Below are positions 1 through 15,901 of a stretch of DNA of 64,000 nt, one piece after another (positions within the stretch are counted from its first letter, which is position 1; each line of letters starts with the position of its first letter). A model generated the notes under the pieces. It was not told where the DNA came from. It saw nothing but the letters and a program-made list of their open reading frames with translations, and ran no database searches. The DNA is from Deltaproteobacteria bacterium IMCC39524 (GTDB lineage Bacteria > Desulfobacterota > Desulfuromonadia > Desulfuromonadales > BM103): the NCBI GenBank assembly GCA_029667085.1, contig JARUHJ010000002.1, positions 1-64,000 on the forward strand. The letters run 5' to 3'. Made by a program: the position numbers and the translations under genes.

Positions 1-317
1 TGTTCCCCAGCACCAAGATCCTGGACGATTTGAACTACAAGGCGATCATGATCGGTTTCCCGATGCTGACCCTAGGTATCATCACCGGCGCTGCCTGGGC
101 CAACTATGCCTGGGGCACTTACTGGAGCTGGGACCCGAAAGAGACCTGGAGCCTGATCGTCTGGTTTATCTATGCTGCCTTCCTGCACGCCCGCTTTACC
201 CGTGGCTGGGTGGGTCGTCGCGTGGCCTGGCTGTCGATCTTCGGCTTCGCCGCCACCATCTTCTGCTACCTTGGTGTGAACCTGGTGCTTTCCGGGCTAC
301 ACTCTTACGGCGGTTAA
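1..317 (+). CDS. ccsB: Cytochrome c biogenesis protein CcsB/ResC type, 3' end only
   Basis: C-terminal part of a membrane protein that handles heme for c-type cytochrome maturation (System II, CcsA/CcsB family). The reading frame is open from base 3, so the gene starts upstream of the window. The visible ~104 residues carry the family's heme-handling WGxYWxWDPKE tryptophan-rich motif ([18 protein letters not shown]), followed by a His in HARF and two further hydrophobic segments ending in GLHSYGG, a usual CcsB C-terminus. Its position right before multiheme cytochrome genes fits its job: heme attachment to the many CXXCH motifs encoded downstream. Family assignment is firm; whether it is fused to a ResB-like part cannot be seen. 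Confidence 0.9.
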
Positions 318-682
318 TTGGGACTATCCGGAGTCGTTGGGTGACCCTCATGCCGTGATGATGGTATTGGAATCTTGACGTTAATTTTCCAAAATCCTCG
401 CGGGTAAATATTCGTATCAACAAGTTTGTCATCGGGGGATGGACATTGTGTTCTGTCCCCCGATTTAAGTTTGGTCTAACAAGGCAGAAAACTTGCATAT
501 GTGCAGAGGTTAGCTCTTTGTGTGCAATGCGGTTACGTGCTTTTCTTTAGCACCTTTGGCAAGTTAACCCCTGAAAAGTGAGCCTCTTAATTAGGGTATC
601 TCACTGATTGGGTACCGTCAAAGGGCGATAATGATTGTTTGACTTCTTATAAGTTTATCCGGCTAATGGGAATTGATAAGAG
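318..682. other. Intergenic region between ccsB and the cytochrome cluster
   Basis: About 365 bases without a credible gene. It holds one G/C-rich hairpin (431-463, listed separately) that probably ends the ccsB transcript. Downstream of it must lie the promoter for the 683-3877 genes, but I see no convincing sigma-70 or sigma-54 match. Confidence 0.6.
431..463 (+). terminator. Probable terminator hairpin after ccsB
   Basis: Perfect 9-bp arms ATCGGGGGA / TCCCCCGAT separated by a 15-base loop. The following T-tract is weak (ttaagtttgg), so the hairpin is clear but intrinsic termination is only likely. Confidence 0.45.
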
Positions 683-1717
683 ATGCGTTTCGGACTGCTC
701 TGCACCCTGACAATACTTCTATGTGCTTTGGCACGGCCTGGCTTTGCTGTCGAAACGGCAGGTAAAAGTTTTGTGCTTTGGGCCGGGTCAGGGTCAGCGG
801 AGACTTGTCTGACCGCTGAATGTCACGCAGATCTTGGTCGAGCGAAATATGTCCATGCGCCGGTTGCCGAAGGTGATTGCCTGATTTGTCACGGCACGAC
901 GGATCAGCCACATCCCGGCGCGGGTTCCATCGTCTTGCTTGAAGAGGAGCCAGGTCTCTGTTTTCAGTGTCATGAAAACCCGGCGGCGGGGATGGCCTAT
1001 CCCCATTCCGCCGTTGCCGAAGGTTGTACCGGTTGCCATAGCCCGCACCAGGGAGGGTTGCCGCAGCTCGTTGTTCAATCAGGCGGCCAGCTCTGCCTGC
1101 TTTGCCATGAAGACGTCGATGATGGTAAATATATTCACGGGCCGGTCAGGGCGATGAACTGCAAGATGTGTCACGGCATTCATGGCGGAGATAACCTTGC
1201 CATGTTGAATCAGCCAGGCAATGGTAATTGTCTGGGCTGTCACTCCGGTATCCAGGCCATCATGGATAATGCGGTTTCCCAGCATGAGCCGGTCGTTAAT
1301 GGTTTTTGCTGGGATTGCCATACGCCACATGCCTCAGAATATAGGCCTTTTTTGCAGGAGTATTACCCTGAAGAGTTTTACACGTCTTACAAAAAAGAGA
1401 ACTTTGGGCTCTGCTTTCGCTGTCACGACGAGACGGCCTTCACTTACGAGCTCACTTCGGAGGCGACCGCGTTTCGTAACCATAATGACAACCTGCACTA
1501 TTTTCATGTTAACAGGAAAAGTAAGGGTAGGGTTTGTAAGGCGTGCCATGGTGTTCATGGTGCCGTTCAGGATAAGCTCTTGGTGGCGAAGTCCCCAGGG
1601 TTTGGCCGCTGGGCCATTCCTCTAACCTGGATTAGTGATGGTGAACGTTCGACCTGCTATGTCGGATGCCATAATCCCAAAACGTATATTCGAAACAAGA
1701 AATTCGGTAATCTATGA
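683..1717 (+). CDS. Secreted multiheme c-type cytochrome (9 CXXCH plus two variant motifs)
   Basis: Periplasmic or outer-membrane-associated electron carrier. The 344-residue product has a signal peptide (MRFGLLCTLTILLCALARPGFA). Nine canonical CXXCH motifs are visible (CLICH, CFQCH, CTGCH, CLLCH, CKMCH, CLGCH, CWDCH, CFRCH, CKACH). Two more look like expanded heme sites: CLTAECH near residue 42 (CX4CH) and CYVGCH near residue 327 (CX3CH), giving up to 11 hemes. Several motifs are followed by xxH (CHSPH, CHGIH, CHTPH, CHGVH), the doubled-motif pattern of the NrfB/DmsE-like and Geobacter multiheme families. The stop overlaps the next start as ATGA, so it is translationally coupled to the NHL lipoprotein. 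No exact known homologue is claimed; the role as cytochrome is firm, heme count of the variants is inference. Confidence 0.9.
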   Translation: MRFGLLCTLTILLCALARPGFAVETAGKSFVLWAGSGSAETCLTAECHADLGRAKYVHAPVAEGDCLICHGTTDQPHPGAGSIVLLEEEPGLCFQCHENPAAGMAYPHSAVAEGCTGCHSPHQGGLPQLVVQSGGQLCLLCHEDVDDGKYIHGPVRAMNCKMCHGIHGGDNLAMLNQPGNGNCLGCHSGIQAIMDNAVSQHEPVVNGFCWDCHTPHASEYRPFLQEYYPEEFYTSYKKENFGLCFRCHDETAFTYELTSEATAFRNHNDNLHYFHVNRKSKGRVCKACHGVHGAVQDKLLVAKSPGFGRWAIPLTWISDGERSTCYVGCHNPKTYIRNKKFGNL

Positions 1718-2901
1718 GTGTCGAAAAAAACTTTAAATGTCTCAGCTGTTTGCTCTTTTACGGCTTACTTGCGAGTCTCTTGCTCGCGGGTTGTGCTCCT
1801 GTAGAAGGGGTAGTAAAGCAAAGGTTCTTTTGGCCTCTTCCTGTGGATGGGGTTGAGCCAAAAATCGAGTACCTCGGTTTTTATCAGTCGGATAAAGATC
1901 TGGAAGTTCATGGGCCAGGATGGGTCGAGTCTGCGGTTCTGGGTGAATATCCCCCGTTTGAACTGTTTCAGTCACCTTATTATATTGCTACCCTCACAGG
2001 GGGGCGACTTGCGGTTTCAGACACGGTTGCGCGTAAGGTGAAAATTCTTGATCTGAAAAAAGGGGTCGTTCGTGAGCTCATGGGCAACGAAGGTTCGCCC
2101 TTTGCTTTTTCCCTGCCTATGGGTGTCGTTGGTGATGAGTCGGGGGCTGTTCTCGTGGTTGACTCACTGAGGGGGGAAATTTTCAAGTTTGGTGCTGACG
2201 AAAAGTATGTCGAGACTTTTGGCGGCAAATCAATTCTTGGACATCCGCTCGGCATCTCATTGGATGAACGAGGCAAGCGGTTCTGTGTGACTGATGTCGT
2301 GGAGCATAACATCGCTTTTTTTGATCTATGGGGAAATCTGCTTTACAAGATTGGCGAGCGGGGAGCAGGCCCTGGCCAGTTTAACTTCCCAACGGATGTT
2401 AGCTTTGACGAAGCAGGCAATGTCTTTGTGCTTGATGCCCTGAATTACAGGGTGCAGGTGCTTGATGACGCCTTGCAGTTTAAGCGTGAATTCGGGGAGC
2501 TGGGTACCGCCGCGGGTTCGTTCCGTTTGCCAAAAGGGTTGGCCGTGAGTCCTCACGGTCAGGTATACATCACAGATGGCCTTGCTCATAAGGTTGTAGT
2601 GTTTGACCACCAGGGCGCTTTTTTGCTCAGCCTTGGGGATAAAACATACTCACGGCAAAGTGGTGAGATAACTCCGGGTGGTTTTTTTGCACCGCGTGGT
2701 GTTGCCGTCGATGCAGCAGGCGAGGTTCTGGTCGTTGACGGGATCAACAGAATGGTGCAGCGCTTTCAATATTTGACAGAAGACTATCTCCAGGGGCATC
2801 CGGTTCGTGATGAGGAGATTTATTTGCCTCCGGCCTTAAGGCAGCAACCGCGTACCCCCTTTGCCCCGGTGTCAAGTCCATCGGAGAAAAGTAATGACTA
2901 A
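1714..2901 (+). CDS. NHL-repeat beta-propeller lipoprotein
   Basis: Predicted lipoprotein of 395 residues: the N-terminal hydrophobic stretch ends in a lipobox (LLLAGC, Cys at ~27). The rest is made of NHL-type repeats, recognisable by recurring G-x-F-x-x-P-x-x-[IVL]-[AS]-[VF]-D and [VL]-x-V-x-D-x-x-N-x-R-[VI] segments, e.g. GPGQFNFPTDVSFDEAG then VFVLDALNYRVQVL, and GSFRLPKGLAVSPHG. NHL propellers bind proteins or surfaces; in this setting it may help assemble or anchor cytochromes at the outer membrane, which is inference. It overlaps the upstream cytochrome (ATGA) and the downstream octaheme gene by 8 bases, so the three form one translational unit. It resembles the second NHL lipoprotein at 4029. 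Confidence 0.85.
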   Translation: MSVEKNFKCLSCLLFYGLLASLLLAGCAPVEGVVKQRFFWPLPVDGVEPKIEYLGFYQSDKDLEVHGPGWVESAVLGEYPPFELFQSPYYIATLTGGRLAVSDTVARKVKILDLKKGVVRELMGNEGSPFAFSLPMGVVGDESGAVLVVDSLRGEIFKFGADEKYVETFGGKSILGHPLGISLDERGKRFCVTDVVEHNIAFFDLWGNLLYKIGERGAGPGQFNFPTDVSFDEAGNVFVLDALNYRVQVLDDALQFKREFGELGTAAGSFRLPKGLAVSPHGQVYITDGLAHKVVVFDHQGAFLLSLGDKTYSRQSGEITPGGFFAPRGVAVDAAGEVLVVDGINRMVQRFQYLTEDYLQGHPVRDEEIYLPPALRQQPRTPFAPVSSPSEKSND

Positions 2902-3877
2902 CTTCTTGAAGCCTGCGATGCTGCTTATCTTTCTGCTGTCCTTGATGGGAGACTTTTCCAGAGTCTGGGCCCTGGAGATTCTTTATCCCCGGGATGGCAC
3001 CTATGTCACCAAATCCAATTATTTGATTATACAGGGCGGTGGGGAACAGCTTCTTGACGGCATGCTGATTGAGATCGATGGTGTCAGGAGTGACCTGATC
3101 GATTTGAGCCCTGATGCGTATCGAAGCCTTTATGCGGATAAGCTGGTGGTCGAGCCCCTCTTTGATCCAGGAGAAAATAAAATTACCGTCGAGGGTTATC
3201 TTCAGGGCAAAAAAGTGGCGTCTTCCAATGCCAGCGTTTATTATCTTGCTGATGAGACCGAGTCCCCGCCGACTGGCTACCGCAGGGAAATTTTTCATCT
3301 GGCAGAGCGAGAGGACGTCTGTGCAGCTTGTCATAATATGCAGCCCTCTGTAAATCAACTGCAAAACCCGACTATAAATAATCCTTGTGCCAGTTGTCAT
3401 GCGCGAATGCTGGCGAAAGCTCATGTCCATGGACCTGCGGGTGTTTATGATTGTTCCTACTGCCATGATGCGGAGAGCCGGCCGGCAAAGTACGCTCTTA
3501 GACTTGATGAAGGGGCCCTGTGCCTGGAGTGTCATGAAGAACAGCGTTCGCTGCCCCTGTTGCATGGGCCTGTTGATGCTTCGATGTGTGTCATCTGTCA
3601 CGATCCTCATGCCAGTGATCACCCTGCACAGTTGACCTCAGAATTGAACCAGGGTTGTCTGGAGTGTCATGCAAGTTTGATCGGTAAGCCACATGTGGCA
3701 AGCGGTATGAGCTCTTCTAGAGCCCATCCTTTGCAGGGGCCTGAAAATCCAAGAGAACCGCAAAAAAAATTAAACTGCAGTAGTTGTCATAACCCGCATG
3801 GAGGGGCGTATGCAAAATATTTCGTCGGCGATGTACAATCGCCTATGCAGCTCTGCGCCGAGTGCCACAGGAAATAA
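2894..3877 (+). CDS. Secreted octaheme c-type cytochrome
   Basis: A 327-residue exported cytochrome. I choose ATG 2894 over an upstream alternative at 2861 because it has GGAGA 7 bases ahead and gives a clean signal peptide (MTNFLKPAMLLIFLLSLMGDFSRVWA). Residues ~27-130 are heme-free and start with ILYPRDGTYV, looking like an Ig-like or cohesin-like adhesion domain. The C-terminal part has eight CXXCH motifs (CAACH, CASCH, CSYCH, CLECH, CVICH, CLECH, CSSCH, CAECH), with CHDPH and CHNPH doubled forms. The heme-free front domain could contact the barrel or NHL partners; that is inference. It overlaps the upstream lipoprotein gene by 8 bases and is followed by a 151-base gap before the next gene. 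Confidence 0.88.
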   Translation: MTNFLKPAMLLIFLLSLMGDFSRVWALEILYPRDGTYVTKSNYLIIQGGGEQLLDGMLIEIDGVRSDLIDLSPDAYRSLYADKLVVEPLFDPGENKITVEGYLQGKKVASSNASVYYLADETESPPTGYRREIFHLAEREDVCAACHNMQPSVNQLQNPTINNPCASCHARMLAKAHVHGPAGVYDCSYCHDAESRPAKYALRLDEGALCLECHEEQRSLPLLHGPVDASMCVICHDPHASDHPAQLTSELNQGCLECHASLIGKPHVASGMSSSRAHPLQGPENPREPQKKLNCSSCHNPHGGAYAKYFVGDVQSPMQLCAECHRK

Positions 3878-4028
3878 CAGGGCCTGGGTCCACAATAAGT
3901 TGATTGAAGGATCGCGTCTCGGCAGAATTCTGAAAGTCGCTAAGCTTTGTTTCTGCTGATTTCATTGGGTTGCTGGTTTAAACGCGGATTGTAGCTTGCA
4001 GCGTTATTTTTTTATTAAGGAGTCTAGA

Positions 4029-5072
4029 ATGCAAGACAAAGGATTGATTAGAAAACTTATTATGGCGGTGCTCTTGTTCAGCCTGTTTGGCTGTTCGGCG
4101 GCAATTCAGGAAAAGGTTGTCTATCCCGTTCCACCGGAGACCGCAAGATTTGAGTGGGTGGGGACATACGCCTCAGTCGCCGATTTCAGGGGCAAGTTCT
4201 CCCAGTTTATGATTGGTGAAGGCGGGGTGAGCGGGGGATTTTTTGCCGGTGTGATGGGTGTGGGGGGGGACGCGGACGACCGCCTTCTGGTCTGTGATCT
4301 CGCCGGCCAGAAGCTCAGAGTTCTGGACCTGGCAAACCAAACAATCGAGAATTTTACAAGTTATGCCTTCCGTAATCCGATCGATGTTGATGTCGACCGG
4401 CAGGGGCAAGTCTATGTCAGCGATGCCGCCGCTAAAGAGGTTCTGGTGTTTTCACCTGAGGGCTCCTTGGTGCGCACCATTGGCAGCGAGGATGTGTTCA
4501 AGAAGGCTTCATTCCTCACGGTCAATGATGATTTGGGCCGGCTTTATGTCAGTGATCCGCTGGCTAATGATATCAAGGTGTTCAGCCTGGAGGGAGAGCT
4601 TCTGTTCAAGTTCGGTCAGAGAGGTGTAGAGGGTGGAGCCTTTCATGTCCCCCAGGGCCTCGAGTTTGACTCCTCCGGGCAGCTGTTTGTCGCTGACTCC
4701 CTGAATGCCAGGATCCAGGTGCTCAGTGCCGATGGCGAGTTTATAAGACAATTTGGAGAGCGTGGCACATTTAACCACCAGTTGGAAGCCCCCAAGGACC
4801 TGGCGTTTGATAGCGAGGGCCATTTGTACGTAACCGATTCCCGTAAGCCAAGTTTTCGAGTTTTCGATCCTGAAGCAGGGCAGCTTCTGTTGATGATTGG
4901 GGGGTCAGTAACCTCCGATCACAAACTTGGCTTTACGGTGCCAACAGGCATTTACGTTGACAGCCAGGATCGCGTCTATATTGGGGATTTGATGTTGGGT
5001 CGCGTCACCGTATGGCAGTACCTGTCAGAGGCCTACAAGCAGCGCGTTAAAGAGGCCGCTAAGCAGCAATAA
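4029..5072 (+). CDS. NHL-repeat beta-propeller lipoprotein, second copy
   Basis: Predicted lipoprotein of 347 residues. ATG 4029 is preferred because AAGGAG lies 6 bases upstream and the product then starts with a short basic n-region and a lipobox (LLFSLFGCS, Cys ~18). Repeats of the NHL type fill the mature part: FRNPIDVDVDRQGQVYVSDA, GAFHVPQGLEFDSSGQLFVA and LEAPKDLAFDSEGHLYVTDS style segments, each followed by a short beta-strand with R-[VI]-[QR]-V. It is a paralogue of the propeller at 1714 and sits immediately upstream of the sigma-54-driven tetraheme gene. Two propellers interleaved with two multiheme cytochromes suggest paired assembly or docking factors; no enzyme activity is indicated. 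Confidence 0.85.
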   Translation: MQDKGLIRKLIMAVLLFSLFGCSAAIQEKVVYPVPPETARFEWVGTYASVADFRGKFSQFMIGEGGVSGGFFAGVMGVGGDADDRLLVCDLAGQKLRVLDLANQTIENFTSYAFRNPIDVDVDRQGQVYVSDAAAKEVLVFSPEGSLVRTIGSEDVFKKASFLTVNDDLGRLYVSDPLANDIKVFSLEGELLFKFGQRGVEGGAFHVPQGLEFDSSGQLFVADSLNARIQVLSADGEFIRQFGERGTFNHQLEAPKDLAFDSEGHLYVTDSRKPSFRVFDPEAGQLLLMIGGSVTSDHKLGFTVPTGIYVDSQDRVYIGDLMLGRVTVWQYLSEAYKQRVKEAAKQQ

Positions 5073-5136
5073 GCGTTATTGGTGATATGGCTTAGGTGTG
5101 GCTGGTTTTATGGCTAAGACTGAAACGCAAAAGGCG

Positions 5137-5154
5137 ACTGTGCAAATGCACAGT
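5137..5154. promoter_or_regulatory. Perfect palindrome upstream of the sigma-54 promoter
   Basis: ACTGTGCA-AA-TGCACAGT is an 18-base perfect inverted repeat, ~27 bases ahead of the -24 element at 5181 and flanked by GGC/GCC that could extend it. It has no T-tract on the + strand, so it is not a normal terminator for the 4029 gene. It could be a binding site for a sigma-54 activator or a repressor. The site is seen; the role is inference. Confidence 0.4.
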
Positions 5155-5180
5155 GCCGAAAAATAGGCGTTTGGTTGTTT

Positions 5181-5196
5181 TGGCATTGCTCTTGCT
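5181..5196 (+). promoter_or_regulatory. Sigma-54 (RpoN) -24/-12 promoter of the tetraheme cytochrome
   Basis: TGGCATTGCTCTTGCT matches the sigma-54 consensus TGGCAC-N5-TTGC[AT], with the required GG-N10-GC spacing (GG 5182-5183, GC 5194-5195). It predicts transcription from about 5207 and a ~100-base leader before the ATG at 5307. Transcription would need an activator ATPase not encoded in this window. Confidence 0.75.
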
Positions 5197-5206
5197 AGTA
5201 TAGGAA

Positions 5207-5306
5207 ATCATGTCCAGCAGGACAAACAAGTTTAAGATGGAGAGACTAAAAACTCTCTGTCTCAATTCAAACCGGGGATGAGCCCCAAATTAACGGAGGT
5301 AGGAAA
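5207..5306 (+). promoter_or_regulatory. Structured 5' leader of the tetraheme cytochrome mRNA
   Basis: Between the predicted start site and the gene lie three short hairpins: TGTCC-AGCA-GGACA (5211-5224), a GAGAG...CTCTC stem (about 5240-5258), and GGGG-ATGAG-CCCC (5274-5286). A strong ribosome site GGAGGT follows at 5295-5300, 6 bases from the ATG. A leader of this kind could stabilise a highly expressed mRNA. I do not recognise a riboswitch class. Confidence 0.4.
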
Positions 5307-5888
5307 ATGAAGAAGATTATTGTAATGGTAGCACTGGTAACCCTGGCGGCAACTTCAGCTTTCGCTGGTATCCAGAACACAGCTCATGACCTGTCCGGTC
5401 GTGGCACAGGCGTCGACGAGATTTGTGCTTTCTGTCACACTCCTCACAGTGGCGGTACTCAGGCTCCTCTGTGGAACCGTGGTAATGGCCCAGCAGTAAC
5501 CCAGCAGTACAGCAGCATCAGCATGGACGCGACCCCAGGTTCCGGTACTTCTGACGCTCCTCTCTGTCTCTCTTGCCATGACTCGGCTACAATTGACACT
5601 CTTGTCATCACCAACACCCCGAACAGCAAGACTTACAACCCAGCTGGCCTGACTCTGAACGCCAATGCTGACCTCGGCACAGACCTCTCTAACGACCATC
5701 CTGTCGGTTTCGACATCACGACTGCTGGTCTTGAGATTAACGCTACTCCTGCTAACGCTCCTCTGTTTGGCGCTGGCAACGACGTATGGTGCTCTAGCTG
5801 CCACGACGTACACAACAACACCAACGCACCGTTCCTGATCATGACCAACACCAACTCAGCTCTGTGCTTGGACTGCCACAACAAGTAA
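5307..5888 (+). CDS. Secreted tetraheme cytochrome, OmcE-like (candidate nanowire subunit)
   Basis: A 193-residue exported cytochrome with signal peptide MKKIIVMVALVTLAATSAFA and four CXXCH motifs: C40AFCH, C87LSCH, C162SSCH, C187LDCH. Apart from the four heme-attached histidines there are exactly four others (27, 47, 131, 169), just enough for bis-His ligation of every heme. The layout (an early T-x-H-D-L, then CxFCHTPHSG, long beta-rich linker, last heme at the very C-terminus) is that of the tetraheme OmcE family, whose Geobacter member polymerises into extracellular filaments. Codon use is strongly biased (ctg, ggt, aac, gct), as in highly expressed genes. It has its own sigma-54 promoter and terminator, so it is a monocistronic unit. 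Membership of the nanowire class is inference from layout and neighbours. Confidence 0.85.
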   Translation: MKKIIVMVALVTLAATSAFAGIQNTAHDLSGRGTGVDEICAFCHTPHSGGTQAPLWNRGNGPAVTQQYSSISMDATPGSGTSDAPLCLSCHDSATIDTLVITNTPNSKTYNPAGLTLNANADLGTDLSNDHPVGFDITTAGLEINATPANAPLFGAGNDVWCSSCHDVHNNTNAPFLIMTNTNSALCLDCHNK

Positions 5889-5928
5889 GACTTTGAGTAC
5901 TTTGATCGCATCTCTTTTGTGATCCTGA

Positions 5929-5958
5929 GGGGGACGGCTTGCCGTCCCCCTTTTTTTT
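5929..5958 (+). terminator. Strong intrinsic terminator after the tetraheme cytochrome
   Basis: A 10-bp perfect stem GGGGGACGGC / GCCGTCCCCC with a TT loop is followed at once by eight T. It isolates the tetraheme transcript from the barrel gene. Confidence 0.93.
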
Positions 5959-6373
5959 CGAGTCGGATGGTGCGAATAAATTAACAGGCCAGCCACAATT
6001 GTGTTAAAAAGTTTAAAGCAAAATCCTTGTGGGATAAGCGCTGCCGGTATCAAGGGACTCGACGTCTTTTCTGGGAAGGTCCTGATGTAAAAGTTTCAGG
6101 GTCGATTTTCTCGGCTTTACAACCCTTTAAAGTAAAAAAATAATCGATTTCTCGGCTCTCTTTGTGGGGGCTTTGTTTTCTTTGTGGTATTCGTATCGCC
6201 CCCTTATGTATGAGCGGACTTTTCCTGCTCGATGCTTTCTGGGGAGCGGGTTGCGTTTGCACTTTGTGTAATCGCGGGATGTCTGGTCTTTTCGCTTGGC
6301 GATCTTATTGTTGTTTTCGTGTCTTTGGGCCACTGTCTCCATGTTCGGGAGGGTAGTTAGCGCACTTTCTGCT
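5959..6373. other. Long intergenic region before the barrel gene
   Basis: About 415 bases between the terminator and the sigma-54 promoter at 6374. No credible gene is seen on either strand; short open frames here lack ribosome sites and protein-like composition. The length would accommodate activator binding sites for the downstream promoter. A weak TTGCAC-TTT-GTGTAA near-palindrome lies around 6257-6271. Confidence 0.5.
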
Positions 6374-6389
6374 TGGTATAAAAATTGCT
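6374..6389 (+). promoter_or_regulatory. Sigma-54 (RpoN) promoter of the beta-barrel gene
   Basis: TGGTATAAAAATTGCT has the -24 GG (6375-6376) and -12 GC (6387-6388) with exact N10 spacing and a full TTGCT -12 element. Transcription would start near 6400, which rules out a TTG start at 6385 for the following gene and favours an ATG at or after 6412. Confidence 0.65.
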
Positions 6390-6447
6390 TGTTTTTGTAT
6401 TGAGTACAAAGATGGTTATGTTTTTTTTATGCCCGTGTTTCGATGTG

Positions 6448-8772
6448 ATGGCGAGAATGGTAATAAACCTCAAATATCAATTGTCAGTTAACCAAACTAA
6501 GCTGGCACAGTTGTGTCTGTTGGTTGTTATGGTTCTGACTTGTCTTGCCTCCACAGCGGAGGCGCGGATATCCGGTGAAGTTGCATTGCTTTACACAGAC
6601 TACTCTGCCAAAGAGGATGGCGAAAAGGTAAGTGACTTTTCCTCTTTTTCCCAAAATTACTCTCTCTACTATAGCAAGTCTGGTTTTGTCGGCGATCAGA
6701 GGTTGGGTAAGTATAATTTCGGACTGGGCTATCAATGGGCGTCTACGTCCGCGACTCTTGATACAAGCCACGGAACTGAGGATTTCGATCTCGAAAACTC
6801 CGATGGCAAGTTTCTTTTCAACGGCGATATAACCATCGCCCCTGGAGCTTTGCCGTTCCGTTTTCACGCCTTCAGCTATGATAACCAGGCTCCAATATCT
6901 AATTACGCTCGGACTCGAGGTGTTTTGGACCGAACCCTGATCACCGGCACGCGAACTCGTGAAGAGGTGGTCTCCGGATTTACTTTGATGGCAGGTATTC
7001 GCAACGGTTCATATCTAGGCAAATATCGTAAGCTCCTTAGCAGCTTGCCCCGCGCTTATGTCGACTACAGCCAGACTTTTATCCGCGACCTTGACACTCT
7101 CAACAAAGTTCATAGCCTGGAGCGTGACTTGGCTTTTGTCTCCTTGAATAAGAAAGACAATTGGTTCCATTTTCGCGCATCTGACTATAAAGATTACCTC
7201 GATAGCAGGAATAATACGTATACAAAAACGATTCTCATTGGCACTATCAATCAGAATCTTGCCCGCCAGTGGATTAATATGACCAACTGGATCAAACTTT
7301 CTGTCGATGCCAGTTATACGGAAGAAGAGAGCGAAGAGACTCTTGAAACAGCATATGACCCTAAGGTCTTTTCTTTAAATCTCTATAGTCAGGCCGATTA
7401 TGGGAAAAATCACGTTTCCGTATTTAATAACTACAGTCGATTGAGGGATTCAGACAAATTTGAAAGACGTTATGAAATACCTGTTTTCGCCCGGGGTGTG
7501 ATTGATCATAAGCGGTCCTGGAGTCTTCAGCTCCGCAGGTATGCTGATCAGGAAGACTGGTACAACACAAATTTTGTTGGTGTGGATGAAGAAGGTGAAT
7601 ACCTCGCAGCACGCTTCAATAATCAGAGGAGCACTTACACTTTCGCATCGACGCTGGAGCTGGAGAGGAGCAAGCAAATTCCTACAGAAGCGTTTGCTGC
7701 TCGACTTCGCCAGGAGATCAGCCAAACAAGGTCTTATGGTGTCGCGAACCCTTGGTTGTTGGGTTATACTGCGGTCTTTGTCCATACTGATGGTGACTAC
7801 GAGGCTACTGGTGGCACGGGAGATATCTTTGAGCATGAGCTCTATGGATCCTCCCAGTGGGCCTTATCACCACGCAACACTTTAGAGCTCAGGCAGAACT
7901 TCCGCCACGCAACCGCAAACGGTTCCGGCTACTCGACAATTTATATCTCACCCAAGGGGTATGATGTTACCTTCGATAACGTGGGACCAATCGCTTCTGA
8001 GGAGGCCCTTTACGCTTCAGAGACGACCCTTAGCCTTGAATCACTTTGGGGGGCAAAGCTGAAAAACCGACTGGTATTATCGAACCAGGTTTATTATGGC
8101 GGGGCTGAAGATAAAAGAGATTCCTCTCTGGTGGATTTCCTGACCTACCGATCCCGTAATTGGCGGCTTGAGATGATGAATGGGGTTTATGTGGGTGATG
8201 ATCCTCCTGATATAACGGTGAGTCAATCGAGCTCAGCCAGGTCTTTCTCAAACTCAACAGCTGGAGGTCTGGATACTCGTGATGTGAATTATATTCTGGG
8301 CCACAGTACAAAAGTGGAATATTTCAGCAGTCGGAATTTCAAGAGCAAGGCGAACTTTAAATTCGCCCTGAAGGACACAGATAACGGTAAGGTTTACCAA
8401 GGATCATTCTTTGAAGAGAGTGAATATTCCTTGTTCTCAAGGACTGGTCGTAGAAGGGCCTTGGGAAGGCTATACCAGCAATTCGAGTACGAAAAGTATT
8501 CCAGCGATTTCAATACTGCGAGCTATCTCAAATTGTTGCTTGGAGCCACTTATTATCCCATGTCATATTTCGAGCTCGGCGGAGATATTTATTATGAAAC
8601 ATACGACCAGCTAGGGATTGATCAAATAGCATTAAGCGTTTTGGCCAGACTTACTTTTTCCAGATTGACGTGTGAAACTCGTTACTCTTATGCCCTTGGT
8701 AAGTTGGACGATGGTAACTATGATAAACGAACAGAACATTTGTTTGAGGCAAAGGTCATAAAAACCTTTTGA
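6448..8772 (+). CDS. Outer-membrane beta-barrel protein, candidate porin of an electron conduit
   Basis: Large predicted outer-membrane protein, about 774 residues. Start is uncertain: ATG 6448 or 6457 (6412 also possible), all downstream of the sigma-54 start site. A hydrophobic export signal (LAQLCLLVVMVLTCLASTAEA) is followed by a mature part rich in alternating aromatic/polar strands, such as GEVALLYTDYS, YSLYYSKS, YNFGLGYQWAS, LRLYSQADYG-like and EMMNGVYVGDD stretches, and it ends in a terminal Phe (AKVIKTF), the usual barrel-assembly signal. There is no CXXCH. This is the pattern of the porin subunits that sheath cytochromes in porin-cytochrome complexes. With the multiheme genes upstream it could be the outer-membrane channel of this locus; that link is inference. 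Confidence 0.78.
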   Translation: MARMVINLKYQLSVNQTKLAQLCLLVVMVLTCLASTAEARISGEVALLYTDYSAKEDGEKVSDFSSFSQNYSLYYSKSGFVGDQRLGKYNFGLGYQWASTSATLDTSHGTEDFDLENSDGKFLFNGDITIAPGALPFRFHAFSYDNQAPISNYARTRGVLDRTLITGTRTREEVVSGFTLMAGIRNGSYLGKYRKLLSSLPRAYVDYSQTFIRDLDTLNKVHSLERDLAFVSLNKKDNWFHFRASDYKDYLDSRNNTYTKTILIGTINQNLARQWINMTNWIKLSVDASYTEEESEETLETAYDPKVFSLNLYSQADYGKNHVSVFNNYSRLRDSDKFERRYEIPVFARGVIDHKRSWSLQLRRYADQEDWYNTNFVGVDEEGEYLAARFNNQRSTYTFASTLELERSKQIPTEAFAARLRQEISQTRSYGVANPWLLGYTAVFVHTDGDYEATGGTGDIFEHELYGSSQWALSPRNTLELRQNFRHATANGSGYSTIYISPKGYDVTFDNVGPIASEEALYASETTLSLESLWGAKLKNRLVLSNQVYYGGAEDKRDSSLVDFLTYRSRNWRLEMMNGVYVGDDPPDITVSQSSSARSFSNSTAGGLDTRDVNYILGHSTKVEYFSSRNFKSKANFKFALKDTDNGKVYQGSFFEESEYSLFSRTGRRRALGRLYQQFEYEKYSSDFNTASYLKLLLGATYYPMSYFELGGDIYYETYDQLGIDQIALSVLARLTFSRLTCETRYSYALGKLDDGNYDKRTEHLFEAKVIKTF

Positions 8773-8878
8773 ATCGCGCCTCCAAGTTGTGCCCCTTCAA
8801 TTATTCTTTTTGATCGCTTCCCTGGTAGAAATCGCTTAACATCGGTACCTAACATCTCTTTATCGAAAGAAGCTTGAT

Positions 8879-9835
8879 ATGAATAACCTTCAGATTAAGA
8901 TTTCCGTGGTGGTTCCGATTTTTAATGAAAAAGAGAATCTGCGTGTCCTGGTCGATGAGGTGCGGGCGGCTCTGGTCGAAACCGGCCTGAGCTATGAACT
9001 GCTCCTGGTTGATGACGGCAGCACCGATTGCTCCCCCGCTCTGCTCGAAGAATTAGCCTCTGAATCAAAATCCACAAAAGTGATCCTTCTCCGGCGTAAC
9101 TTTGGCCAGACGGCTGCGATGGCTGCAGGCTTTGACCACGCCCAGGGAGAGGTGATTGTTCCCATGGACGGCGATCTGCAGAATGATCCCCGGGATATCC
9201 CCCGTCTCCTGAAAAAACTGGATGAAGGCTACGATGTTGTCTCCGGTTGGCGCAAAGACCGCAAAGATAATTTCTTCTTCCGAAAAATCCCCTCGATTCT
9301 TGCCAATGCACTGATTTCACGTATGACCGATGTGTCACTTCGCGATTATGGCTGCAGCCTCAAGGCTTATCGGCGAGAGGTTTTGTCCGGAATTAACCTC
9401 TACGGTGAGTTGCACCGTTTTGTGCCTGCCCTGGCCAGCCAGTTTGGTGCCAAGGTCGCAGAAATAACCGTGAACCACAGGCCGCGTGTGGCCGGGGCCA
9501 GCAAGTACGGTATCGATCGAACCTTGCGGGTCGTTCTGGATCTGGTCACCGTTAAATTCCTGCTTAAATATTCGACCCGCCCTATGCAGCTGTTTGGCCG
9601 TTGGGGAGTATGGACTTTCCTGCTGGGTGGAGTGAGCGGCTTGACGACCCTTTATATGAAGATGTTTGAAGGTTTGTCTATGAACCGTAACCCCTTAATG
9701 GTTCTCACTGCCTTCCTGCTCTTCAGTGGTGTTCAATTCCTGGTGTTGGGGCTGGTTGCTGAACTGGTGACCCGAACCTATCACGAGGCACAAAATAAGC
9801 CTGTCTATGTTGTCCGCGATAAACTGAACTTCTGA
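8879..9835 (+). CDS. GT2 polyprenol-phosphate glycosyltransferase (DPM1/GtrB/ArnC type)
   Basis: A 318-residue membrane-bound family 2 glycosyltransferase. The catalytic domain occupies ~1-230: VVVPIFNEKEN at the nucleotide site, LLVDDGSTD (first Asp motif), and VPMDGDLQNDP (the DxD-like metal site). Two C-terminal membrane helices (~240-262, 278-302) match the GtrB/ArnC class that transfers a sugar from a nucleotide to undecaprenyl phosphate on the cytoplasmic side. Such lipid-linked sugars feed GT-C transferases, of which this island has seven. GAAAGAAG lies upstream of the ATG. It opens the glycoconjugate island, 106 bases after the barrel gene. Confidence 0.88.
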   Translation: MNNLQIKISVVVPIFNEKENLRVLVDEVRAALVETGLSYELLLVDDGSTDCSPALLEELASESKSTKVILLRRNFGQTAAMAAGFDHAQGEVIVPMDGDLQNDPRDIPRLLKKLDEGYDVVSGWRKDRKDNFFFRKIPSILANALISRMTDVSLRDYGCSLKAYRREVLSGINLYGELHRFVPALASQFGAKVAEITVNHRPRVAGASKYGIDRTLRVVLDLVTVKFLLKYSTRPMQLFGRWGVWTFLLGGVSGLTTLYMKMFEGLSMNRNPLMVLTAFLLFSGVQFLVLGLVAELVTRTYHEAQNKPVYVVRDKLNF

Positions 9836-9915
9836 GCTTGTTTGACCTTGACTGCGCTGCATTGATGGTGTTTGCCAAGTATTCATTGAGCGTGTATCAT
9901 TCTCCTGACATTTAT

Positions 9916-9951
9916 TGAGTTGGCTATAAAACATCAATAAACTCATTTTTT
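9916..9951 (+). terminator. Weak terminator-like hairpin
   Basis: TGAGTT / AACTCA arms around a long AT-rich loop, followed by six T. The stem is only 6 bp, so termination after the GT2 gene would be partial at best. Confidence 0.3.
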
Positions 9952-10007
9952 CCCAGCGCTAAAATATAAACAACACTACACTCTCTCACCCCTGACTTAG
10001 CGAGTCG

Positions 10008-11171
10008 ATGCGCATACTTTTTCTCAATTATGAATTTCCGCCGATCGGAGGCGGAGGTGCCAACGCCAACGCCTATCTATTCCAGCAGTATGCGAACAAC
10101 CCGGACTTTGTTGTTGATTGTGTCACCAGCACTCTTGACAAGCAGGACCAGGTTGAGAGCTTTGCGGAGAATATCACTTTGCATCGGCTTGCGGTGGGTA
10201 AGCGGGAACTGCATTTCTGGACACAGCGTGAGGTTTTATCATGGTTGCGGCAGGCGCATCGAAAAGTTCGAGAGCTTGTCAGCCAACATGATTATGATGT
10301 CTGCCATGCTTTTTTCGGTTTTCCATCCGGGTTAGTCGCCTGGTGGTACAGAGCTCAGGTCCCCTACGTACTGTCCTTGCGTGGCTCTGATGTCCCTGGT
10401 TTTAATCCCCGTTTTGCGTTCCAGTATGTTTTTCTGAAACCGCTTTTTCGCCATATCTGGCAGCAGGCCTCCTCGGTTATCGCTAATAGCCAGGGACTTA
10501 AAGTTTTGGCCAACAAGTTCATGCCGAAGCTTTCCATCGGAGTCATTCCGAATGGCATTGATACTCAGCAGTTTAAGCCGGCGACCGCTGGCACGAGGGT
10601 GCCGCAACGGATTTTGTGTGTCTCCCGCCTGGTCGAACGCAAGGGCGTCCAGCATTTGATCGGGGCGATGCCTGCGATTGTCGCCAGCTTCCCAGATGTC
10701 AGTCTTCAGGTCGTGGGCGAGGGGAACTTGTTGGACGAACTGGCTGCACAGTGTGTTGCACTGGGAGTGCATGAGCATGTTGATTTTTTGGGCTATGTTC
10801 CCCACGAGCAACTGCCTGAGTTTTACCAAAAGGCCGAGCTCTTTGTGCAACCGTCATTTTATGAAGGGATGAGCAATACCGTGCTCGAAGCTATGGCTTG
10901 CGGTTTGCCGGTTATCGCATCCGGTGAGGGAGGGCGCGAAGAGCTGCTCCGGGACAACGCATTGCTGGCACCCTACGGCGACCCCACTGCTTTGGCAGAA
11001 GGGGTCACTGCCCTTTTGTTGAATCCAGAAAAGCTGACAGACATGGGACAAGTCTCACGCGAGATTGCCCAATACTACTCCTGGGCTGCCGTGGCCAAAA
11101 GTTATCTCAATGTTTACCATGATTTGCTCGACTCCAGCCACGCGCCACGCGCCGCGCGCCACGGATTATAG
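10008..11171 (+). CDS. GT4-family glycosyltransferase
   Basis: A 387-residue GT-B fold glycosyltransferase. The N-terminal half starts NYEFPPIGGGGANAN, the glycine-rich acceptor-side loop of GT4 enzymes. The C-terminal Rossmann half has ILCVSRLVERKGVQHLI, the GEG loop, HVDFLGYV, and the donor-binding E-x7-E region (PSFYEGMSNTVLEAMACGLPVIAS). It most likely extends a glycan from a nucleotide sugar in the cytoplasm; sugar identity cannot be read. The last ~12 codons (around 11140-11163) consist of a CACGCGC-type GC-rich repeat that encodes an odd HAPRAARHG tail, perhaps a repeat inserted at the gene end. The stop is 2 bases from the asparagine synthase ATG. Confidence 0.88.
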   Translation: MRILFLNYEFPPIGGGGANANAYLFQQYANNPDFVVDCVTSTLDKQDQVESFAENITLHRLAVGKRELHFWTQREVLSWLRQAHRKVRELVSQHDYDVCHAFFGFPSGLVAWWYRAQVPYVLSLRGSDVPGFNPRFAFQYVFLKPLFRHIWQQASSVIANSQGLKVLANKFMPKLSIGVIPNGIDTQQFKPATAGTRVPQRILCVSRLVERKGVQHLIGAMPAIVASFPDVSLQVVGEGNLLDELAAQCVALGVHEHVDFLGYVPHEQLPEFYQKAELFVQPSFYEGMSNTVLEAMACGLPVIASGEGGREELLRDNALLAPYGDPTALAEGVTALLLNPEKLTDMGQVSREIAQYYSWAAVAKSYLNVYHDLLDSSHAPRAARHGL

Positions 11172-11173
11172 CT

Positions 11174-13003
11174 ATGTGTGGCCTTTGCGGATACCTGGGA
11201 CCAGGCAACGAAGACGTGTTGCAGGCTATGTCAGAGGCTATTGTCCACCGTGGCCCAGATGATTCCGGAATTCACGTCGGTGATGGTTTCGGTTTGGCCC
11301 ATCGTCGCCTGTCGATCATCGACCTGGCTGGTGGCCATCAGCCGATGTTTTCGCCCGAAGGCGATGTGCTGGTCTTTAACGGCGAGATCTACAATTTCCA
11401 GGAAATGCGTGGTGATCTAGAAAAACTCGGCCACCGTTTCTCGACCCATAGTGATACCGAGGTCCTGTTGCGCGCTTATCGACAGTGGGGCGCCGACTGT
11501 CTGCAACGGTTGCGTGGGATGTTCGCTTTTGCCCTGTGGGATAATGTTCGCCGTGAGCTCTTGATCGCCCGGGATAGAGTTGGCATCAAGCCACTCTACT
11601 ATACAGAACACCGGGGGACTTTCTACTTTGCCTCCGAAATCAAGGCACTGCTTGAAATCCCGGATTTCCCGCGTCGTCTCAACCGTGAGGCCCTGCCGCT
11701 ATTCCTGACTTTCCGTTATACGCCGGGTGAACCGACTCTGTTCGATGGAGTTAACAAGCTTCTTCCCGGACACAGCATGACTCTGAAAAAAGGTCAACCT
11801 GCGCAGATCAATCGCTATTGGCAGCTCGAATTCGAGCCGGATGAGGGGCCAAGTGAAACCGCATGGAAAGAACAGTTCTGGGAAACCTTTGAAGAATCGG
11901 TTCGTCTGCGCATGATCAGCGATGTGCCTCTTGGCGCCTACCTCTCGGGTGGTCTTGATTCAAGCTTGATCGTCGCCGGGATGAGTGGCCTGTCTAGCTC
12001 GCCGGTAGAGACCTTCTCGGTTGGCTTTCGCGACCAGAAATTCGACGAATCCCCCTATGCCAAAGAGGTTGCTGCGCAGTTCAACTGCAATCATCATCAA
12101 CTCTCAGCAGAAGAGGAAACGGGCGATCTGCTTGATAAGGTTATTTACCACCTTGATGAACCCTTGGCTGACTTGGCAACACTCCCTACTTATCTCATGG
12201 CACGTGAAACCAAGCCGCATGTAACTGTCGCCTTGTCCGGTGAAGGTGCTGATGAAATTCTTGCCGGTTATCCCAAGTACCGGGCTTTTCTCATGAGCCG
12301 CAAGGCGGCGAATATGTTGCCAACATCTCTTTGCCACGTGGGGGGCCGCATGGCAAACAATATCACTCTGCAACGGGCTTTTGCTTCAATCGGTGAACGG
12401 GATCGAGCCCGGGCCTATCTCAATTTAGCTGCTGTCTATTCAGGTGGCGAGCTCTCTCAATTGCTGAATAACCAGGTGCTTGCAGGAGGCAATGCTGCGG
12501 AGTTGATCGTCAAGTCCTTCTTTTCTCCCGGGTTGGATGGCTTGAGTCAGCTACTCAACCTCGATTTCCATACCTGGCTGCCCGATGACCTGCTGCTCAA
12601 GAACGACAAGATGACCATGGCGCACGGTGTTGAAGCCCGAGTGCCATATCTCGATCACAAGTTGGTGGAGCTCTGCGCCCGGATTCCGTCTCGATATAAA
12701 CTTAAGTGGAATCAGGAGAAGGTCCTGCTGCGCAAGGTCATGCAGGGGCGATTGCCAGAACGGATCCGGACGCGCAAAAAGACAGGATTCACTGTTCCTT
12801 TGGAGCAGTGGATGAAAGGGCCGATGGGCAAACAGGTCAAAGGATTTTTTGAGCCTGAACAAGTTGCTGAACAGGGGCTGTTCCGTCCTGATTTTCTGCA
12901 GGAATTGGCACGCAAACCTTTGAATGACCAATATTACCGGCGGCAATTCTGGAGTGTTGCGGCTTTGGGGCTTTGGCAGCGGCGTTTTGGTGTCTGGTCT
13001 TGA
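11174..13003 (+). CDS. asnB: Asparagine synthase (glutamine-hydrolysing), AsnB type
   Basis: A 609-residue class II amidotransferase. Met is followed by the catalytic Cys2 (MCGLCGYLG), with FNGEIYN and the RGMFAFALWD segment of the Ntn glutaminase domain (~1-200). The synthetase domain holds the ATP pyrophosphatase loop SGGLDSS at ~258-264 and the substrate segment LSGEGADE near 355. Full length for the family. Copies in polysaccharide islands of this group often amidate a sugar acid or precursor rather than free aspartate; both are possible here. It is tightly coupled to the GT4 gene upstream and followed by repeat copy A. Confidence 0.92.
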   Translation: MCGLCGYLGPGNEDVLQAMSEAIVHRGPDDSGIHVGDGFGLAHRRLSIIDLAGGHQPMFSPEGDVLVFNGEIYNFQEMRGDLEKLGHRFSTHSDTEVLLRAYRQWGADCLQRLRGMFAFALWDNVRRELLIARDRVGIKPLYYTEHRGTFYFASEIKALLEIPDFPRRLNREALPLFLTFRYTPGEPTLFDGVNKLLPGHSMTLKKGQPAQINRYWQLEFEPDEGPSETAWKEQFWETFEESVRLRMISDVPLGAYLSGGLDSSLIVAGMSGLSSSPVETFSVGFRDQKFDESPYAKEVAAQFNCNHHQLSAEEETGDLLDKVIYHLDEPLADLATLPTYLMARETKPHVTVALSGEGADEILAGYPKYRAFLMSRKAANMLPTSLCHVGGRMANNITLQRAFASIGERDRARAYLNLAAVYSGGELSQLLNNQVLAGGNAAELIVKSFFSPGLDGLSQLLNLDFHTWLPDDLLLKNDKMTMAHGVEARVPYLDHKLVELCARIPSRYKLKWNQEKVLLRKVMQGRLPERIRTRKKTGFTVPLEQWMKGPMGKQVKGFFEPEQVAEQGLFRPDFLQELARKPLNDQYYRRQFWSVAALGLWQRRFGVWS

Positions 13004-13020
13004 TGGGAAAAAGACAATTT

Positions 13021-13116
13021 GGCCGCGATGAAGGTCTATCAAGATCTATGGTTAAATCCAAACACAAGGTCATGCTCTTTGGCCACATAGATTTTCATAG
13101 ATTCTGATAGCGGCTA
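13021..13116. repeat. MITE-like repeat core, copy A (left of the GxxExxY gene)
   Basis: About 97 bases with imperfect terminal inverted repeats: the left end GCCGCGATGAAGGTCTAT pairs with the reverse complement of the right end (TAGCCGCTATCAGAATCTAT). It is nearly the same as copy B (13554-13649), in the same orientation. The interior aaacacaaggtcatgc is shared only by A and B, defining a subfamily distinct from copies at 21720, 43288 and 51925. Confidence 0.85.
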
Positions 13117-13159
13117 AATATAGATTGTTGCTTTTGTTTTGTGTGCTCAGGAGGGGAAG

Positions 13160-13543
13160 ATGGTTAGAGATAAAGTGTATTATGATGCATTGGCCGAAGT
13201 GATTGTCGGTAGTGCATACAAGGTTGGCGGTACTCTGGGGTGTGGCTTTCTCGAAAAGGTTTACGAGAATTCACTGGCCATAGAACTTGTCGCGTCTGGT
13301 CTGAATGTCGAAACACAGAAACCAATCAAGGTTCGTTATGCAGGCGAGGTCGTTGGCGAGTATTTTGCTGACATGCTTGTTGAGAACGATATCGTCGTCG
13401 AGTTGAAGGCTGTTAGGGCAATTGAGAATATTCACTTTGCGCAATGCCAGAATTATCTGAAGGCCACAGGGAAAAAGCTTGCATTGCTCATCAATTTTGG
13501 CGAAGAGAAGGTCAAGATCAGGCGAGTAGCAAACGGCATTTAA
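13160..13543 (+). CDS. GxxExxY family protein (PD-(D/E)XK_3-like)
   Basis: A 127-residue protein of the GxxExxY family, related to the PD-(D/E)XK nuclease superfamily but without known function. The naming motif is G29-F-L-E32-K-V-Y35. The nuclease-like core is D71 followed by E81-L-K83 at a beta-hairpin, with the later QCQNYL helix typical of the fold. I choose ATG 13160 because CAGGAGGGG lies just upstream; a TTG at 13139 is less likely. The gene stands alone, bracketed by two direct copies of the 97-bp repeat (A 44 bases before, B 11 bases after), so it looks like an inserted cassette within the glycan island. A role in mobilising or acting on the repeat is only a hypothesis. Confidence 0.88.
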   Translation: MVRDKVYYDALAEVIVGSAYKVGGTLGCGFLEKVYENSLAIELVASGLNVETQKPIKVRYAGEVVGEYFADMLVENDIVVELKAVRAIENIHFAQCQNYLKATGKKLALLINFGEEKVKIRRVANGI

Positions 13544-13553
13544 AGACCAGTTT

Positions 13554-13649
13554 GCCGCGATGAAGGTCTATCTAGGTCTATGGTTTACCCCAAACACAAG
13601 GTCATGCTTTTTGCCCTTATAGATTTTCATAGATTTTGATCGCGGCTAA
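13554..13649. repeat. MITE-like repeat core, copy B (right of the GxxExxY gene)
   Basis: Direct repeat of copy A with about a dozen differences and intact GCCGCGAT...ATCGCGGC termini. It begins 11 bases after the stop of the GxxExxY gene and ends before the operator region of the winged-helix gene. Confidence 0.85.
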
Positions 13650-13684
13650 ACAAAGGTTTTTGTTTTAGCTTGATCACAATGGCC

Positions 13685-13699
13685 GTTCAAAAAATGAAC
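13685..13699. promoter_or_regulatory. Operator-like palindrome 1 (GTTCA-N5-TGAAC)
   Basis: Perfect 5-bp arms GTTCA and TGAAC around five A. The same pattern recurs exactly 60 bases downstream, about six helical turns, so one protein dimer pair could bind the same DNA face. Lies upstream of the winged-helix regulator gene. Confidence 0.65.
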
Positions 13700-13744
13700 A
13701 AGAAACATAAATACCCTTGATTTATATGGAGTCTTTGTTGTAGC

Positions 13745-13759
13745 GTTCATAATATGAAC
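13745..13759. promoter_or_regulatory. Operator-like palindrome 2, overlapping the regulator start codon
   Basis: GTTCA-TAATA-TGAAC; the ATG of the regulator (13754-13756) lies within it. A protein bound here would block transcription or translation start, which points to autorepression by the gene product. No clear -35/-10 pair could be fixed between the two sites. Confidence 0.65.
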
Positions 13760-14368
13760 AATAAATCCACCGATCAGGAATCATTCCGTACCCTGCAGTT
13801 GATGACAGAACTCGAAGAGGGTTCGACGGTTTCCCAGCGGGAGCTGGCCGGGCGTCTCGGGGTTGCTGTCGGTCTGGTCAACTCCTATCTGAAGAATTTT
13901 GTTTCCAAAGGCTATGTGCGGGTTAAGAATTACCCGCGCAACCGCTATGCCTACCTGCTTACTCCTAAAGGTTTTGCCGAAAAAAGCCGCCTCGCACTAC
14001 ATCACCTTAACTACTTCACCAATCTCTACACCATCACCCGTCAGGAATATCTGGAGCTGTTCCGGCAACTCAAAGCCGATGGCGTTGTGGAGGTGGTGTT
14101 CTGCGGTGTAGATGAGGTGGCGGAAATCGCCTATATGTCGTTGCAGGAAGCCGGGCTCAAGTTGTCGTCTGTGATCGACGAGAGCTATGAGCGCCGGGAA
14201 CTGTTCGGCCAGCCGATTCGTTCGTTTCCGGAAAACTGGAGTGATATCTCTGGAGAAATCGTCCTGACGACTCTTAAGCGCGGTGCTGACTTAAGGAAAA
14301 AACTACGCGAGCATGGCTGGCAACATGATATCTATGCGCCGCCTGCTTTACTAAATGGTGACATGTGA
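13754..14368 (+). CDS. Winged-helix regulator with C-terminal Rossmann-like sensor domain
   Basis: A 204-residue DNA-binding protein. Residues ~10-75 form a MarR-like winged helix (TVSQRELAGRLGVAVGLVNSYLKNFVSKGYVRV, with the wing YPRNRYAYLLTPKG). Residues ~105-200 look like a small Rossmann unit: VEVVFCGVDEVAEIAYMSLQEAG, then a VIDES strand end and IVLTTLKRGADLRKKL, similar in plan to the N-terminal domain of NeuD/PglD sugar acyltransferases. It may sense a sugar nucleotide or related ligand and control the island. The two GTTCA-N5-TGAAC palindromes at its start suggest self-regulation. It is followed after 13 bases by a methyltransferase gene. Domain call is firm for the N-terminus, moderate for the C-terminus. 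Confidence 0.8.
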   Translation: MNNKSTDQESFRTLQLMTELEEGSTVSQRELAGRLGVAVGLVNSYLKNFVSKGYVRVKNYPRNRYAYLLTPKGFAEKSRLALHHLNYFTNLYTITRQEYLELFRQLKADGVVEVVFCGVDEVAEIAYMSLQEAGLKLSSVIDESYERRELFGQPIRSFPENWSDISGEIVLTTLKRGADLRKKLREHGWQHDIYAPPALLNGDM

Positions 14369-14381
14369 AAGCGAGACATAA

Positions 14382-15161: not shown

Positions 15162-15901
15162 TGTACCGTTTGTTGAAAGAGCGCGGTCGTGCCGCCTCCG
15201 ATTACTATGCCGGTAGTCGCGAGTATTTTTTCTTGTCACCGGCAGGGCTGTCGTTGTTGCAGTCACTAAAGCCAGCAATTGAAAGCTGTTGCCGGGGTCG
15301 AGTCCTGGACGCTGGAGCCGGCCGTGGGGCCTACCGGGAGTTATTGGACGGATTTGCTGAAAGTTATGTCGGTATGGATGTTTCAGCGACACCGTCGACC
15401 GATGTTGTTGGGGATGCGCAAAAGCTCCCCTTCGTTGATGAGACTTTCGATGCGGTTTTCAGTTCGCAGGTTTTGGAGCATGTACCACAGCCCGAGGCAG
15501 CTTTAAAGGAGTTTCAGCGAGTACTGAAACCGGGCGGATATCTGATTCTCACGGTTCCGCACCTGTCGTGGTTACACAATGAGCCCCACGATTATTACCG
15601 CTATACGCCGCATGGACTACGTTTCCTCTTAGCCAGGGCAGGATTTCAGGATAAATACATTGTTCCAGCAGGAGGTCTTTTGTCATTTTTAGGTCACATA
15701 CCTTCCACGGTCATGGTGAATTCAACTTTTGGCATCCCTGTCGTGCATCGTCTTGTGTTGGCGTTAAATTCCATTTGGTGTCGGCTAGTTACGTCATTGG
15801 ACCGTCTAATAGAAAAGAATAAAATTTACGCTCTAAATTATGTTTGCCTCGCTGAAAAAAATAGAGTTTTTCAGCAACGGAAACCAGATGATAGAAGCTA
15901 A
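15161..15901 (+). CDS. Class I SAM-dependent methyltransferase (second)
   Basis: A 246-residue Methyltransf_11-type protein. Motif I reads RVLDAGAGRGAYRELL (~46-61), then YVGMDVSATPSTDVVGDAQKLPF, FDAVFSSQVLEHVPQP, and LKPGGYLILTVPH. The HDYYRYTPHGLRFLLARAGF segment is typical of methyltransferases in surface-glycan clusters. It is translationally coupled to the gene before it and overlaps the following GT4 gene by 14 bases. The target, probably a sugar or lipid intermediate, is not known. Confidence 0.85.
   Translation: MYRLLKERGRAASDYYAGSREYFFLSPAGLSLLQSLKPAIESCCRGRVLDAGAGRGAYRELLDGFAESYVGMDVSATPSTDVVGDAQKLPFVDETFDAVFSSQVLEHVPQPEAALKEFQRVLKPGGYLILTVPHLSWLHNEPHDYYRYTPHGLRFLLARAGFQDKYIVPAGGLLSFLGHIPSTVMVNSTFGIPVVHRLVLALNSIWCRLVTSLDRLIEKNKIYALNYVCLAEKNRVFQQRKPDDRS

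Follow-up and report, generated by a model that had tools for sequence, protein, structure and literature searches.

An OmcE-type cytochrome gene set with an MtrA-like cytochrome and a large outer-membrane barrel: a candidate conduit locus in Desulfuromonadia

Introduction

OmcE of Geobacter sulfurreducens (GSU0618; PDB 7tfs) is a tetraheme cytochrome with an interfacial heme for which the adjacent subunit supplies one of the histidine ligands (reviewed in PMC12307469; PMC12954529). Deletion of OmcE impairs ferrihydrite reduction in G. sulfurreducens while anodes are minimally affected (PMC10597711), and the protein has been described as not essential (PMC13194489). Its gene stands at the end of GSU0612-0618, with the order ppcA-resB-ccsB-cytochrome-cytochrome-x-omcE, where ppcA is GSU0612 and the maturation pair is GSU0613-0614. 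In Geoalkalibacter ferrihydriticus, the locus Ga0056053_02426-02431 encodes an MtoA-like cytochrome, further cytochromes, an OmcE homologue and two NHL proteins, and was described as lacking mtoB (PMC12016550). The OmcE locus has been partly described before, and its parts are known.

Two other described systems share features with such loci. In MtrCAB and related porin-cytochrome complexes (MtrA of Shewanella, 6r2q; Omb-Oma-Omc and Ext of Geobacter), the gene for an MtrA-like rod is accompanied by one for a large outer-membrane barrel; the OmcE locus is outside the set of five for which conduit function was tested in G. sulfurreducens (PMC12307469). For the wire cytochrome OmcS, the osc genes have been proposed to fold, secrete and shape the protein, with secretion assigned to OscEFG and shaping to OscD (Shen et al., 2025, as summarised in PMC13194489). 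Here, we compare these systems with a locus of Deltaproteobacteria bacterium IMCC39524, found in a window of 64,000 nucleotides that opens contig C2 in a genome of 3.78 Mb.

Results

Organization of the locus

Six genes on the + strand occupy positions 683-8772 of the window, in the order MHC1, NHL1, MHC2, NHL2, OmcE-type gene and barrel (Table 1). Overlaps of a few bases join MHC1, NHL1 and MHC2, and gaps of 151, 234 and 559 bp precede NHL2, the OmcE-type gene and the barrel, respectively. An initial annotation had proposed a single + strand run of these parts, and each was found in its place; the two NHL lipoproteins (PF01436 matches and lipoboxes), the octaheme and tetraheme proteins (8 and 4 CxxCH) and the barrel of 774 residues were likewise as described. 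The same annotation placed CcsB ahead of the run, which is correct as to position, but the gene is incomplete, a 104-residue fragment (3-317) that lies 365 bp from MHC1, because the window begins at a contig edge.

Window positions 1-316 have a counterpart at the start of contig C9 (G000:C9:1-316; L061), the two ccsB copies being 95% identical over 316 bp and fully identical over the first 127 bp. Since both near-identical copies stand at contig starts, the assembly was probably interrupted by a repeat at this point. Next to the C9 copy, on its 3' side, come thioredoxin-like, CcdA-like and DsbB-like genes. On the 3' side of the cluster, positions 8879-18648 hold a polysaccharide-type set (glycosyltransferases, an asparagine synthase-like protein, a methyltransferase and a radical SAM protein with a B12 domain), the first gene of which comes after the barrel in most relatives too.

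Table 1. Features of the OmcE-type locus, in window coordinates.
Feature	Position	Strand	Evidence
CcsB, C-terminal 104 residues (cytochrome c maturation, System II)	3..317	+	PF01578 E 4.7e-38; TIGR03144 E 2.4e-54
MHC1, MtrA/DmsE-like periplasmic multiheme cytochrome	683..1717	+	9 CxxCH + C-x4-CH + C-x3-CH; MtrA profile and fold matches
NHL1, NHL beta-propeller lipoprotein	1714..2901	+	PF01436 E 6.5e-19; lipobox LLAGC
MHC2, octaheme cytochrome	2894..3877	+	8 CxxCH; Paired_CXXCH E 1e-31; no lipobox
NHL2, NHL beta-propeller lipoprotein	4029..5072	+	PF01436 E 1.5e-22; lipobox LFGC
Sigma-54 type (-24/-12) promoter-like site upstream of OmcE, TGGCATTGCTCTTGCT	5181..5196	+	Consensus scan, 1 mismatch
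OmcE-type tetraheme cytochrome, predicted filament subunit, 193 residues	5307..5888	+	4 CxxCH; 9yuq and 7tfs matches
Intrinsic terminator-like hairpin and T-run, directly 3' of OmcE	5927..5964	+	11 pairs, 8 G-C, TTTTTT; consensus match only
Possible sigma-54 type site, 74 bp before barrel start, TGGTATAAAAATTGCT	6374..6389	+	Consensus scan, window only, 1 mismatch
Large outer-membrane beta-barrel of 774 aa, outside named families	6448 (ATG)..8772	+	AF2 model, Foldseek/VIA

The OmcE-type cytochrome

The tetraheme protein had been called OmcE-like, and it passed the sequence tests for this assignment. In a search of PDB sequences it matched 9yuq (E 4.5e-38 over residues 1-193, 52% identical) and OmcE of G. 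sulfurreducens (7tfs; E 1.9e-35, in two stretches), with homology over the full protein and its four CxxCH motifs. It contains exactly eight histidines, as required for four bis-His hemes; all are invariant in 38 of 38 aligned proteins, and the same eight are present in the G. sulfurreducens homologue. In genome G135, the protein encoded directly upstream of the barrel has exactly the 9yuq sequence (100% identity), and its locus shows the window's gene order and an MHC1 with 23 CxxCH, so that the OmcE of such a locus type has already been solved. We take this entry, which holds 16 chains, to represent a filament.

Further OmcE-like tetraheme genes occur in the same genome (C11:19407, C4:256336, C2:410315, C2:451857 and C2:513711; L062-L066), where they mostly adjoin NHL genes and have no barrel beside them; one on C4 is next to a gene for a 3032-residue protein with 42 CxxCH. 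Many class genomes (G107, G215, G108, G074, G250 and others) also carry, away from the barrel, open frames of ~550-650 residues with an OmcE-like stretch, possibly a larger OmcE-related cytochrome.

MHC1, MHC2 and the NHL propellers

Eleven heme motifs had been attributed to MHC1. Nine are canonical CxxCH, and the higher figure holds if the non-canonical sites CLTAECH and CYVGCH are counted; all 29 homologues examined keep the residues of the last site (C325, C329 and H330), a reason to include C-x3-CH in the count. The best match of the MHC1 profile was MtrA of the Mtr complex (6r2q_A, E 2.7e-23), a chain that carries a wrong molecule name in the database listing. MtrA 6r2q_A was also the sole PDB match of the MHC1 model in Foldseek (E 1.1e-4, 285 columns), the model itself being weak (pLDDT 63.5). 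MHC1 scores under the NCBIfam cut-offs for DmsE and GSU2203, and is therefore related to these subfamilies yet outside them. Long forms of MHC1, with 17 or 23 CxxCH and two odd motifs, occupy the same gene place in some relatives (L021, L026, L045, L050, L067), and on the barrel tree their distribution needs at least two changes.

An MtrA/DmsE-like periplasmic cytochrome is thus present, and neither MHC1 nor MHC2 is a surface lipoprotein cytochrome of the MtrC/OmcA type: a lipobox was found in none of 32 MHC2 homologues, and in a TIGR03507 search both proteins scored far under the cut-off. The N-terminal ~130 residues of MHC2 contain no heme motifs. By position, MHC2 is equivalent to GSU0616, and a mutant in that gene was no worse than wild type in Fe(III) and U(VI) reduction (PMC1829397). 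NHL2 matched solved NHL propellers with E values down to 4.8e-46.

The barrel

The single-chain AF2 model of the barrel (pLDDT 84.3, pTM 0.66) has ~34 long strands by our count. Its structural matches in Foldseek and VIA were generic large barrels of the outer membrane and not discriminating (LptD, SlpA, MtrB and porins); by VIA, MtrB had the top Z score, 17.1 for 425 residues, but was tied with porins. Neither single-sequence nor profile searches of PDB sequences gave a match, and no Pfam family matched any of 33 barrel members. Assignment to MtrB_PioB (PF11854) was rejected, because none of the 33 members matched it, even with E values as high as 1 admitted. When the organism's own genome was searched with PF11854, the barrel locus was not among the matches; barrels of that family were found elsewhere (G000:C5:93448, C3:357069 and C1:174624), and other conduits therefore probably exist.

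Putative signals around OmcE

In 34 of 37 relatives, sigma-54 type sites with no more than one mismatch precede OmcE, most of them at a distance of 90-190 bp from the start (which was probably misplaced for L049); for the window, 0.5% of shuffles reached such a match. Given this site and the strong terminator-like hairpin, OmcE looks monocistronic, as was predicted for omcE of G. sulfurreducens (PMC1829397). Riboswitch control was considered and rejected, since the sole Rfam match in window positions 1-13000 was a chance snoRNA far under the gathering score; in seven relatives, Rfam matched tRNAs only.

Conservation of the gene set

Searching with the barrel yielded 37 relatives, whose aligned barrels share as little as 21% identity with that of the window. 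In all 37 loci the barrel has OmcE, MHC2 and one or more NHL genes beside it, and MHC1 is kept in all 31 with enough upstream sequence; recurrence of the gene set over 37 loci is far beyond chance. Some relatives have the window's order (ccsB-MHC1-NHL-MHC2-NHL-OmcE-barrel), and a second order, ccsB-MHC1-MHC2-NHL-OmcE-(NHL)-barrel, lies on one side of a 100/100 branch in the barrel tree. Within the class, the barrel was found in 80 of 277 genomes and in 33 of 82 genera; the G. sulfurreducens genome was not among the 277, in which the best OmcE identity was 65%. The best OmcE matches in the class were encoded at most 5 kb upstream of a barrel and on the same strand in 27 of 28 and 39 of 43 cases, and those placed otherwise came from genomes with another copy beside the barrel. 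The initial annotation had mentioned similar gene content near OmcE genes, and this synteny is real and widespread, the gene set staying together in many related bacteria of sediments.

Several Geobacter-type loci begin with ppcA, as in G. sulfurreducens, and L025, which was read closely, has resB too; their order matches that of GSU0612-0618. The window differs from the G. sulfurreducens locus in gene order, NHL1 lying between MHC1 and MHC2. We presume that the corresponding G. sulfurreducens barrel is encoded near GSU0620. In a contig of Geoalkalibacter sp. (L042), the unclassified barrel found in the window also follows OmcE, so the pore missing from the G. ferrihydriticus locus, which otherwise has the same kinds of parts as the window, may belong to this barrel family.

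Resemblance to the OmcS loci is also evident, since the osc cluster, like the window, combines a wire cytochrome with an NHL propeller, a barrel of ~750 aa and a multiheme protein to which the MHC1 profile extends. Such a protein, with 22-26 CxxCH (in some cases truncated at the end of the stretch read), was present in five of six OmcS regions from relatives, and the barrel stands beside the wire cytochrome in 5/6, with an NHL protein in four of those. However, the window's wire cytochrome is not of the hexaheme OmcS family, and homology between the barrels is not established: hhalign gave 84-93% probability for OmcE- versus OmcS-locus barrels with signal peptides and 28% without them. No prolyl isomerase (OscH) is encoded in 683-8772, where every gene was assigned to another kind of protein.

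Discussion

The locus joins a predicted wire cytochrome, a modelled outer-membrane barrel, a periplasmic-type cytochrome and propellers, as had been suggested, on the strength of the OmcE sequence tests, the MtrA matches and the barrel model. We put at slightly better than even the chance that these parts form one outer-membrane electron pathway ending in an OmcE nanowire, in which a conduit of barrel and MHC1 feeds the filament. MHC1, as an MtrA-like rod of ~11 hemes, would accept electrons from periplasmic carriers such as PpcA, whose gene opens the Geobacter versions of the locus, and the barrel would hold it much as MtrB holds MtrA. MHC2 might connect the rod to the filament or to periplasmic carriers, while OmcE would polymerise outside the cell into a wire through the histidine shared by adjacent subunits. 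The NHL lipoproteins may sit at the outer membrane and help to place or shape the filament, and a promoter and terminator of its own could allow many wire subunits to be made per conduit. Our findings proper are gene content and order, protein families, conservation, ligand residues, solved OmcE relatives and the promoter-like and terminator-like sequences; a complex of barrel and MHC1, electron transfer from it to OmcE, the places of MHC2 and of the propellers, and the way in which electrons flow are what we infer. Because the fold match of MHC1 comes from a weak model, the barrel fold is generic and no Pfam family covers it, the conduit is a reasoned proposal. Unlike MtrCAB, the locus has a barrel outside PF11854 and includes a filament cytochrome and propellers, and no MtrC/OmcA-type surface cytochrome is in the set. 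Against the proposal count the barrel's place outside MtrB_PioB and its generic fold matches, the missing surface cytochrome, the weak MHC1 model, the unimpaired GSU0616 mutant, the description of OmcE as not essential (PMC13194489) and the fact that the five conduits already tested are others.

The main rival holds that the barrel may be a pore for OmcE export and assembly, with the NHL lipoproteins as assembly factors and MHC1 and MHC2 as periplasmic carriers that charge the wire or act elsewhere, which we consider somewhat unlikely. By analogy with the OmcS loci, where a barrel of ~750 aa and mostly also a propeller accompany the wire cytochrome and secretion has been proposed for osc genes, the OmcE barrel could export, and its large predicted strand number could admit a folded protein; but an MtrA-like cytochrome lies beside it in 31/31 testable loci, the prolyl isomerase gene is missing, and homology of the two barrel families is not established, at 28% hhalign probability without signal peptides. 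An MtrA-like partner that is always there speaks for a conduit, whereas so many strands would also allow export, and the barrel could do both. Coupling through shared maturation or regulation only, with OmcE working independently of the barrel and with barrel and MHC1 as a separate conduit, seems improbable: ccsB or resB does head the cluster, OmcE is flanked by a promoter-like and a terminator-like site of its own, and OmcE paralogues are found away from any barrel, yet the barrel and propellers, which bind no heme, stay with OmcE over 33 genera and in two gene orders. We judge it very improbable that this complex serves mainly for electron uptake, with Fe(II), Fe(0) or partner cells as donors. 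The G. ferrihydriticus locus has been read as the most probable Fe(II)-oxidising locus of that organism (PMC12016550), but the ferrihydrite phenotype of the OmcE deletion (PMC10597711) points to outward flow, and direction is not readable from sequence.

The conduit and export readings would merge if the barrel, with its ~34 modelled strands, were a combined socket, sufficiently wide to hold the MtrA-like rod and also to export and anchor the OmcE filament, joining the base of the wire electrically to the periplasm. We regard this as unlikely on present evidence; if it were true, the longer MHC1 forms would extend the rod further across the periplasm. The constant barrel and its pairing with an MtrA-like cytochrome appear to be new relative to the literature surveyed, in which Wang et al. 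(2022; OmcE) and Shen et al. (2025; osc) do not figure as primary reports. The route of nanowire exit, the anchoring site and the point of electron entry have been named as open questions (PMC12307469). A locus in which the wire subunit stays with an MtrA-like rod and a barrel of its own across 33 genera is a defined candidate for all three, and may show how protein nanowires plug into the cell.
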